In this document: piece by piece, positions 6,756 to 9,057 of the stretch
How positions within the stretch are numbered: position 1 is the first letter of the stretch
How the letters are laid out: the number at the start of each line of letters is the position of its first letter
NCBI GenBank assembly: GCA_947623805.1
Contig: CANQHZ010000021.1
Span: 1-45,633 of the forward strand
Origin: an uncultured Lachnospiraceae bacterium
GTDB lineage: Bacteria; Bacillota; Clostridia; Lachnospirales; Lachnospiraceae
Direction: 5' to 3'
DNA: 45,633 nucleotides
Notes under the pieces: model-generated
Databases searched by the model: none
Seen by the model: only the letters and a program-made list of their open reading frames with translations
What the model was told of the DNA's origin: nothing
Made by a program: the position numbers and the translations under genes

Positions 6756-8744
6756 CTAGCCTTCATTGCGATACTGAACGGGCGTCATTCCAAGCTTTTT
6801 CTTAAAGGTACGGTTAAAATGCTCGACATTGGGATATCCGACCGCGACGGCTATGTTTTCGACAGTCATACTACCGTTTCTCAAAAGCGTCTTTGCCTTT
6901 TTTAATCTGATATTTGTCAAAATCTCATTGAATGTCTTACCTGACTTTTCATGTATATACTTGCTCACATACGGCTCTGACAGATGAAAATGCTCTGCCA
7001 GTTCACTGAGAGTAACCTCCTGGTATCTGGACTGCATATAATTCATAATGTCCATCAAACGCTCATCATTGCACGCCTCGCTGCTTTGGAGCTCAGGAAG
7101 CTTGTTGACACTGACACATAATGCGTGTATTGATGCCTTGATTATATCATCGTCAAAACCTACGCCCCAGTATTTTTTACCATTGCAGGTCACGCTCACA
7201 TACGCAATCGCTTTTGAGGATGAGCCTTTCGTAAGCGCATGCTCCTCATAATCCGAAAGCTGATAACTTATGCCGAAATATTGCTTTATTGTATTGCTTA
7301 CAGCGTCAAGGCGTCCGTTACCGTTTGCGTCAACTATGGTCTTTTTATCGCCACATGTTATAGTCGCCTCTGCCATTATGCCGTCCACCTGTTTGAAATG
7401 ACACTCGTTTATCTGGAAATGCGGCAAAATGTCCACATAATTTTCGCAGAATATATCATAAACCCACTTGGGCGAAAGCTCCTTATGCTCTTGGTCTGAC
7501 ACACTTTTTACCAAATAGCCCACCTCCTCGCGCATAGCATCCGGAAGTGAAATACCAAAATTCTGCTTTAATATGTAATTTACACCGCCTTTTCCTGACT
7601 GGCTGTTTATACGTATGACATCAGCGTCATAATTTCTTCCGACATCCTTAGGGTCTATGGGCAGATACGGCACTGTCCATTTATTACTCTTTCGTTCCTC
7701 ACGCCATTGCATACCCTTTGCGATGGCATCCTGATGAGAGCCTGAAAATGCCGTGAAAACAAGCGCTCCTGCATACGGCTGCCTGTCATGCACTGTCATT
7801 CTGGTAAGCCTTTCATACTTTTGACGAATTTCAGGCATATTTGAAAAGTCAAGCTGCGGGTCTACACCGTATGAAAACATATTCATTGCCACTGTAATGA
7901 GATCAACATTTCCCGTGCGTTCTCCGTTGCCAAACAATGTACCCTCAACGCGGTCTGCGCCAGCAAGCACGCCAAGCTCCGTATCGCTTACGCCGCAGCC
8001 TCTGTCATTGTGCGGATGTATGCTCAACACTACATTTTCCCTATATTTCAAATTTTTGCTCAAATATTCTATCTGAGATGCAAAGACATGAGGCATAGCG
8101 GTCTCCACTGTGGCGGGAATATTTATAATGGCTTTCCGCTCACTGCTCGGCTGCCATACATCCAACACGGCATTGCACACTTCAAGCGCGTACTCCACCT
8201 CAGTACCATGAAAACTCTCAGGGCTGTACTCAAATGAGAAATTGCCTTCCATCTCGTCAGCAAGATTTTTCAACAGTACGGCACCATCTACCGCAAGTTT
8301 CTTTATAGCCTCCTTGTCTTTCTTGAATACCTGCTCTCTCTGTGCTACTGATGTTGAATTATACAGATGAATGACTGCTCTTGGCGCTCCTTTTATTGCC
8401 TCAAAGGTTTTTCTTATAATATGCTCCCTCGCCTGCGTAAGCACCTGCACTGTAACATCATCAGGTATCATATTGCGCTCGATAAGCGCACGCATAAATT
8501 CGTACTCCGTATCAGACGCGGCGGGAAATCCCACCTCAATTTCCTTAAATCCTATATCTACAAGCATCCGGAAAAATTCCAGTTTCTCATCAAGGCTCAT
8601 CGGCTCGATAAGCGCCTGATTGCCATCACGCAAGTCTACAGAACACCATATCGGCGGTCTGTCTATTGCATCTTTTTTCACCCAATCATATGTCATTTCC
8701 GGCGGCATAAAGTATGCTTTTTGATATTTGTCTGCATTCTTCAT
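6756..8744 (-). CDS. leuA: 2-isopropylmalate synthase fused to an AraC-type DNA-binding domain
   Basis: Residues 1 to about 555 form a complete LeuA of the fungal/type-2 class, which condenses acetyl-CoA with 2-oxoisovalerate in the first step of leucine synthesis: R-D-G-N-Q at 39-43, metal-binding H-P-H-N-D-R-G (His243, His245), G-N-G-E-R-T-G-N, and the C-terminal regulatory domain (about 420-550) that binds leucine in this family. Residues 559-662 (genomic 6759-7070) are a full AraC/XylS helix-turn-helix pair, with [17 protein letters not shown] in the first motif and [15 protein letters not shown] in the second. Reading frame and codon style are continuous across the join. Ordinary LeuA of this class is about 100 residues shorter. 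A dual role as enzyme and leucine-sensing regulator is inference. Confidence 0.93.
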
Positions 8745-8766: not shown

Positions 8767-8806
8767 GCACTGCCGTTCGCACATAACAGGTTTGTGACGG
8801 CAGTGC
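8767..8806 (-). promoter_or_regulatory. Hairpin in the leuA leader just before the ribosome binding site
   Basis: A perfect 10-bp stem (GCACTGCCGT / ACGGCAGTGC) with a 20-base loop ends about 20 bases before the leuA start. It has no T-run, so it is not a standard terminator. It could control translation or mRNA stability. No T-box sequence or leucine-specifier structure was recognised. Confidence 0.5.
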
Positions 8807-8868: not shown

Positions 8869-8915
8869 AATTTAACATATATCCTTCTATAATTCAATGA
8901 TTAAAATTAATCATT
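8869..8915 (-). promoter_or_regulatory. leuA promoter with overlapping palindrome
   Basis: On the minus strand TTGAAT (8892-8897) and TAAATT (8869-8874) are 17 bases apart. A perfect palindrome with 9-bp arms (AATGATTAA-AA-TTAATCATT, 8896-8915) overlaps the upstream edge of the -35 box, a position suited to an activator or repressor. It is a candidate target for the AraC domain encoded by leuA itself; AraC proteins more often bind direct repeats, so this is uncertain. Confidence 0.5.
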
Positions 8916-9057
8916 TTTCTTGATTTTTTTTATTCTATTTGAAATCATATACGATTTTATTTTCAACAACAAATCCCACTCTGTAAATATCCTAATAATA
9001 TCATCTCTCATTATTTTCTCTCTACTAATCAAGAGATTGTATCTTTGTCATATATAC
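8916..9057. other. AT-rich intergenic stretch upstream of leuA
   Basis: The leuA-ppdK gap is about 400 bases; this part, between the palindrome and the ppdK terminator, is very AT-rich. It contains a 34-codon open frame on the minus strand (8907-9011, ATG start) with three consecutive TTG leucine codons, but only a weak ribosome binding site (GAGAGA). I see no convincing gene or RNA here. Confidence 0.4.

Follow-up and report, generated by a model that had tools for sequence, protein, structure and literature searches.

Why does the leuA gene of an uncultured Lachnospiraceae bacterium run on into a DNA-binding domain, and what might the resulting protein regulate? The gene lies on a stretch of 45,633 nt (contig CANQHZ010000021.1 of assembly GCA_947623805.1; hereafter 'the window'), and a first-pass annotation had read it as a complete 2-isopropylmalate synthase (LeuA) with its leucine-sensing domain, joined without a break to a pair of AraC-type helix-turn-helix (HTH) motifs, suggesting a protein that makes the leucine precursor and also adjusts transcription in response to leucine.

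Results

A complete 2-isopropylmalate synthase continues into an AraC-type HTH domain

Pfam analysis of the 662-aa frame bore out this domain architecture, every domain exceeding its curated cut-off. The features of the gene are as follows:

6756..8744, minus strand: leuA-AraC fusion gene, 662 aa (single uninterrupted frame with an ATG start; full length in many relatives)
7821..8651, minus strand: HMGL-like catalytic TIM barrel, aa 32-308 (Pfam; R39, D40, E176, H243 and H245 invariant)
7566..7763, minus strand: IPMS_D2 post-catalytic subdomain, aa 328-393 (Pfam; Y360 is the equivalent of M. tuberculosis Y410)
7098..7475, minus strand: LeuA_dimer leucine-sensing domain, aa 424-549 (Pfam; site residues kept)
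7002..7097, minus strand: LeuA_dimer/HTH_18 join, aa 550-581, with a variable linker within it (Pfam boundaries and alignment)
6765..7001, minus strand: AraC-type HTH_18 domain with two HTH motifs, aa 582-660 (Pfam; dN/dS)

The HTH_18 match scored 77.1 bits against a cut-off of 33.6 and the HTH_AraC match (aa 622-660) 53.9 bits against 26.6, so that the protein carries the two HTH_18-type motifs that mark AraC/XylS transcription factors and, akin to trigger enzymes, unites an enzyme and a DNA-binding domain in one conserved chain. On the enzyme side, residues 4-548 matched the NCBIfam model for type II LeuA/2-isopropylmalate synthase (NF002991) at 804.2 bits (cut-off 455), while the equivalog model TIGR00970 reached 674.5 bits, slightly below its cut-off of 697.4, as for a close but sub-threshold relative. 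The nearest solved structure by sequence was M. tuberculosis LeuA (1sr9 and others; E 3.7e-157, residues 26-519), and AraC-type PDB matches, the best of them a two-component response regulator, were restricted to the HTH end. PF00682 matched at six places in the organism's own genome, among which the fusion was the sole one named isopropylmalate synthase by NCBIfam at E 1e-60; of the other five, one was an oxaloacetate decarboxylase subunit and four received no NCBIfam name at this threshold. The fusion thus seems, as judged by these matches, to be the organism's only LeuA.

R39, D40, E176, H243, H245 and H337, which we take to be the catalytic residues (metal ligands D, H, H; R, E, H), were identical in all 78 in-frame fused proteins. 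The leucine-binding and feedback residues of M. tuberculosis LeuA that are named in the consulted parts of PMC2704214 map, by pairwise alignment, onto G475, G477, L479, D480, L496, Y499, A503, S510, A512 and Y360. Seven of these (the feedback tyrosine Y360, G475, G477, D480, Y499, S510 and A512) were the same in 78/78 proteins; the less strict positions were L479 (75/78), L496 (77/78) and A503 (56/78, with S in 20). D480 replaces A536 of the M. tuberculosis enzyme at the leucine site, and D is likewise found in 18 of 25 HTH-less relatives. We conclude that the enzyme is complete, with conserved catalytic residues and leucine-binding domain, and predict that it is active and inhibited by leucine.

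The fusion is widespread in Lachnospiraceae and its HTH is under purifying selection

An initial search of relatives revealed the same architecture in 38 of 98 genomes (own genome included in this and the following samples). Within the window's genus the full-length fusion was present in 31 of 38 genomes, with one more (G006) in which it is split over two contigs. Among 397 genomes sampled from the family, 207 had a LeuA match at E up to 1e-200, and at least 89 (hand count), several of them one-contig genomes, encoded the full-length fusion through the HTH. Wider samples yielded 13 full-length matches at E up to 1e-260 in 391 genomes of the class, ten from the family and three from other families, and four in 398 genomes of the phylum, one of them outside the class; outside Lachnospiraceae the fusion is sporadic. 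We take Lachnospiraceae as the home family because genes identical to those of the sampled genomes bear that label in the scan of named genomes. Among the best 80 loci of that scan, named carriers from the family were Coprococcus comes, Lachnobacterium bovis, Merdimonas faecis, Dorea sp. D27 and Claveliimonas bilis (complete genome), and carriers from elsewhere were Sporomusa silvacetica, a Pelosinus MAG, Succinimonas amylolytica DSM 2873, a Succinivibrionaceae MAG and a Mailhella MAG; MAG labels may stem from binning errors, and the Sporomusa and Succinimonas records are named strains. Pfam found the same five domains in each of five proteins from named records (Coprococcus comes, Lachnobacterium bovis, Sporomusa silvacetica, Succinimonas amylolytica and the Succinivibrionaceae MAG), two of which had an additional weak HTH match.

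Since the fusion recurs across many relatives and named records, the artefact that would have explained it away, an assembly join or frameshift near positions 7070-7090, is very unlikely, and we rejected it. Two loci, L093 (from G136) and L101 (from G153), have a LeuA frame that ends near residue 555, with the sequence coding for the HTH immediately behind it in a different frame; both retain the upstream operator described below, and the break is either a natural split or an error of assembly.

Across 13 close pairs, the HTH had dN/dS values of 0.000 to 0.018 and the LeuA part values of 0.004 to 0.033, the HTH value being the higher in 2/13; these are rough estimates, with synonymous sites near saturation in many of the pairs. 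Y592, S594, G636, Y637, E641, F643, R645 and F647 of the HTH were invariant in 43 aligned proteins, and the join between LeuA_dimer and HTH varied among the aligned fusions. The low HTH dN/dS indicates that, by this measure, the domain is maintained by strong purifying selection.

A conserved operator precedes leuA genes that carry the HTH

A block of sequence shared upstream of the first 30 fusions, refined on 105 hand-picked loci (78 of 118 listed fused rows plus 27 that looked unfused, for the most part the nearest rows of that kind), resolved into an operator followed by promoter elements, with the consensus TAAAAWAn-ATCAAnnAAAnTGATTAAwTTTAATCATT-n18-TGnTAnnAT upstream of fused leuA; the invariance of its columns in our alignment A1 is partly by construction, as its 33 sites were chosen among core-matching loci with a spacing of 18. 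The window contains both elements:

8896..8932, minus strand: operator TAAAAAAA-ATCAAGAAAAATGATTAATTTTAATCATT (pattern, matrix and profile matches)
8869..8877, minus strand: extended -10 element TG-T-TAAATT, 18 nt past the operator (alignment; conserved spacing)

The palindrome that the first-pass annotation had marked at 8896-8915 is therefore real and forms the right-hand part of a larger conserved operator.

The stringent core ATCA-N7-TGATTA was present at 58 of 80 HTH-carrying loci, at none of 25 loci with an HTH-less LeuA and in no reversed-sequence control. A 37-column matrix built only from those 58 loci, scored by leave-one-out, reached 10 or more (a threshold set after the scores were known) at 72/80 HTH loci versus 0/25 HTH-less ones; the best HTH-less score was -5.1, and the best reversed control scored 0.9 in the 105-locus set and 8.6 in a later set (L154). 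In the extended collection, with leave-one-out applied wherever a locus belonged to the matrix, the operator was found at 127/138 HTH loci with enough upstream DNA (L017, L142 and L178, with too little, were left out) and at 0/25 HTH-less loci. Usable fused loci fetched after the matrix was built had it in 55 of 59 cases. L093 and L101, initially candidates for HTH-less genes with an operator, were reclassified as HTH-carrying on account of the HTH coding sequence directly downstream, the opposite counting giving 2/27 HTH-less loci with an operator, and the same search revealed no such downstream sequence at the other 25. L052 in the HTH-less set is cut by a contig end at 503 aa; without it the operator count is 0/24, and that of the T-box motif discussed below 20/24.

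Eleven of the 138 HTH loci scored below 10: at L014 the operator lies about 1.5 kb upstream, L134 and L174 have the downstream element only, and the others have degenerate copies or lack one. At L013, L014 and L018 a distance of about 1.3-1.5 kb, which includes another reading frame (acetyltransferase-like or methyltransferase-like by eye), separates the upstream operator from leuA, and in these species other genes may share the leuA promoter. Outside the home family, operator scores were high in Sporomusa silvacetica (44.8), the Pelosinus MAG (44.5), the Succinivibrionaceae MAG (39.0) and G1118 (43.6), and weak copies preceded the genes of Succinimonas (1.9) and Mailhella (1.0).

To probe the link on material independent of the loci above, we searched 80 further whole genomes of the family whose upstream DNA had not been inspected before, 40 with and 40 without the fusion (G103 and G105 being placed among the latter by E-value), with a 69-column profile (R1). 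At E < 1e-4 the profile matched in 29/40 fused genomes, in all 29 just upstream of leuA, and in 0/40 genomes without the fusion; 11/40 fused genomes had no match at this threshold, and at E up to 0.01 the leuA promoter was matched in 31/40. Nine of the 40 genomes without the fusion had a weak match (best 1.8e-4), none at the listed leuA place (assessed in all but G105). In a profile search of 60 relatives, 30 had a match at E < 1e-4, one each, and 28 of these matches lay upstream of leuA; 29 of the 30 genomes carry the fusion, counting G006, where it is split over two contigs. In G005 the match is on a separate contig from the fusion, 250 bases from the contig end; in G027, which has no good LeuA match, it ends two bases from the contig end, and the assembly may simply lack leuA. 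Two fused genus members (G014 and G023) had no match under 1e-4, and four fusion-less ones (G001, G029, G030 and G032) had no strong operator genome-wide (best E 0.03-0.35).

Further operator-like matches occur at 1359-1416 of contig 215 in G015 (L216; E 1.4e-4) and at 238-303 of contig 52 in G035 (L217; E 3.3e-4), and no LeuA-like gene was found near either. Contigs 37, 48, 64, 66, 75, 101 and 151 of G023 carry near-identical weak profile matches, four of them at contig starts, perhaps belonging to a repeat element.

On an unrooted FastTree tree of 166 rows (L144 and L150, with short frames, are absent from it) the HTH label requires six changes, each readable as gain or loss. Of only four independent starred pairs, an average of 3.6 had the operator changing in the same direction and 0 in the opposite one (sign test p 0.125), so that formal phylogenetic proof of the link between HTH and operator is limited by the small number of events. 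Taken together, the distribution of sequence matches leaves the link of the operator to HTH-carrying leuA well supported.

T-box leaders are common in front of HTH-less leuA

The T-box motif TGGnACCGCG occurred within 900 nt upstream of 21/25 HTH-less versus 35/141 HTH loci, a comparison that comprises few independent pairs on the unrooted tree. Rfam analysis of ten loci recognized a T-box in six of seven motif carriers (L011, L046, L048, L099, L108 and L181) and none in three motif-less loci (L054, L061 and L197). The seventh carrier, L028, has a shortened leader that falls under the Rfam threshold and keeps the antiterminator motif, as if the T-box were being lost where the HTH took over. 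Where both elements occur in the matrix set (21 loci), the operator lies upstream of the T-box.

No T-box was found in the window, where Rfam at its gathering threshold gave only a tRNA. The leader does contain one conspicuous structure:

8767..8806, minus strand: stable 10-bp hairpin in the 5' leader (GCACTGCCGT...ACGGCAGTGC), just before the start codon (folding)

The whole leader of the window folds with a z-score of -2.46, and a similar helix is present in a close relative (L009; z -2.75). The hairpin may be a relic or an additional element of control.

Discussion

A proposed leucine-responsive activator of its own gene

Among the leuA genes examined, only those with the HTH were preceded by the operator, and this, along with selection on the HTH and the conserved catalytic and leucine-site residues of the enzyme, makes the transcriptional role that had been suggested for the protein very likely; that leucine is its effector we infer from the LeuA_dimer domain. 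We think it likely that the protein is a bifunctional 2-isopropylmalate synthase and autoregulator of a single gene, probably an activator turned off by leucine, its sign and effector being our reading of the promoter layout and the domain order.

The proposal is as follows. M. tuberculosis LeuA is mainly a dimer, according to the consulted parts of PMC2704214, so that two AraC domains would be presented together, and the LeuA homodimer would place them on the operator, at about -62 to -34 from the assumed start site. AraC-family proteins, according to the consulted parts of PMC9723621, can form symmetric dimers and still bind direct repeats thanks to a flexible inter-domain linker, and in the fusion the join between LeuA_dimer and HTH is variable. 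When leucine is scarce, the bound fusion protein would contact RNA polymerase in the manner of a class II activator; leucine in the LeuA_dimer pocket would both inhibit catalysis and disable activation. In a subgroup of species, a second ATCA-N7-TGAT near the start site may let the same protein repress at high concentration, as an added negative loop. The fusion would act in place of the T-box leader or, in some species, on top of it.

Of the candidate signals leucine is the most likely, since the domain that binds it lies next to the HTH. The main alternative, possible if doubtful, is that the protein responds to one of its substrates or its product (2-ketoisovalerate, acetyl-CoA or alpha-isopropylmalate) and so reports its own catalytic state instead of leucine. 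The HTH is indeed fused to a whole enzyme, not to a leucine domain alone, and alpha-isopropylmalate is the coactivator of yeast Leu3; against this, it is the leucine-binding domain that immediately precedes the HTH, and most residues of the leucine site are conserved in the fused proteins.

The sign of regulation turns on the promoter. The operator spans some two to three helical turns and borders the -35 position, a layout typical of AraC/XylS sites that the fusion protein would be expected to bind. Its distance to the TGnTA of the extended -10 element is exactly 18 nt in 106 of the 115 loci (among 127 operator loci) that have TGnTA in the searched range, and this fixed distance, with a site next to -35, favours class II activation through contact with RNA polymerase over mere blocking. 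We consider it unlikely that the protein is instead an autorepressor that, with leucine as its corepressor, occupies the same operator and obstructs RNA polymerase at the -35 region, as in classical end-product repression. Such a repressor would fit an operator that ends at the -35 position and promoters of which 53/115 match TTGACA at four or more of six positions (versus ~12% of random places in the same loci), so that a weak -35 element may exist. It would also fit the further ATCA-N7-TGAT found downstream of the operator at 19/127 loci, in 13 of them 29-30 nt after it and near the expected start site (loci with this second site include L034, L036, L040, L045, L055, L084, L087, L125, L136, L140, L141, L143 and L187), and the precedent of PutA and BirA, both described as repressors in the consulted parts of PMC6978683. 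However, the exact 18-nt spacing would be superfluous for a repressor, the conserved extended -10 suits an activator-dependent promoter, and the second site is absent from most operator loci, the window included.

Activation of leuA by its own product would appear, on searches of the genome sequence, to concern this gene alone in the window's organism. The first-pass annotation had proposed looking for other leu or ilv promoters with the palindrome, and none came to light in the draft genome (229 contigs, 95.69% complete; ilv and leuB genes not individually located): the profile search returned one strong match, at leuA (E 6.4e-10), the next (E 0.014) covering only part of the model, a pattern search with up to three mismatches returned leuA only, and five weak loci scored 3.2 at most with the 37-column matrix. 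Contig 25 carries two aconitase-family genes, each after a frame that is leuD-like by eye, forming leuD-leuC-like pairs, and the operator was not found there (best score -14.4, against -13.7 for the reversed control). With leuA as the only strong site in the draft genome, we rejected a leu/ilv regulon. Control of further genes through weaker sites is improbable; degenerate half sites in a draft genome could accommodate it, yet the profile search was strong at leuA only and the contig with the leuD-leuC-like pairs scored like its control.

That the HTH is a non-regulatory remnant or structural appendage, the upstream motif belonging to another regulator, is very improbable: some fused genes do have a weak operator or none, but HTH dN/dS is at most 0.018, the operator is missing from all 25 HTH-less loci, from the 40 fusion-less whole genomes (E < 1e-4) and, as a strong match, from the genomes of G001, G029, G030 and G032, and both early-stop genes that have it (L093 and L101) retain the HTH coding sequence just downstream.

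Significance and relation to known systems

We found no account of a LeuA-AraC fusion or of its operator in open-licence PMC papers, a corpus outside which most subscription journals and preprints fall. Trigger enzymes are known; the combination of LeuA, AraC-type domain and operator looks new. At its fullest, we would put the case for the following picture as evenly balanced: a closed loop in one protein that is committed-step enzyme, end-product sensor and sole dedicated activator of its own promoter, established in Lachnospiraceae as a replacement for the T-box and moved between classes and phyla as an operator-plus-gene cassette.

In the fusion an enzyme seems to have taken over the control of the gene that encodes it, a compact case from a major bacterial family of the gut and rumen, and many genes that would be annotated simply as leuA probably encode transcription factors too. 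The predicted operator is precise enough for immediate testing, close relatives offer a natural comparison between RNA-based T-box control and one-component control by a protein, and the system is a candidate leucine- or isopropylmalate-responsive switch for synthetic biology.

Several known systems resemble it in part. The DNA-binding domains of PutA and BirA are a ribbon-helix-helix and a winged helix, respectively. In the consulted parts of PMC6978683, PutA (proline dehydrogenase and put repressor) and BirA (biotin ligase and bio repressor) are bifunctional 'trigger enzymes', and the likeness lies in a metabolic enzyme that doubles as DNA-binding regulator of its own pathway genes. The LeuA fusion differs from both in its enzyme and in its AraC-type DNA-binding domain, in a promoter layout that favours activation and in a target that appears to be its own gene alone. 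With M. tuberculosis LeuA it shares the catalytic and most leucine-site residues; the 644-aa chain of that enzyme, however, ends in the region aligned with residue 548 of the fusion and has no HTH. The C-terminal double HTH is common to the fusion and the AraC/XylS regulators (AraC, RhaS, YesN-type response regulators and S. aureus AryK), whose class II layout likewise has the operator next to the -35 position, whereas the sensor half of the fusion is a complete biosynthetic enzyme. Leucine T-box leaders also control leuA by leucine status, but they are RNAs that sense tRNA charging; the fusion protein would respond to the metabolites themselves and exert its effect when transcription starts. 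Ada of E. coli, finally, is an enzyme with an AraC-type HTH that activates its own gene, although it is a DNA-repair methyltransferase switched by methylation and its HTH is placed differently.
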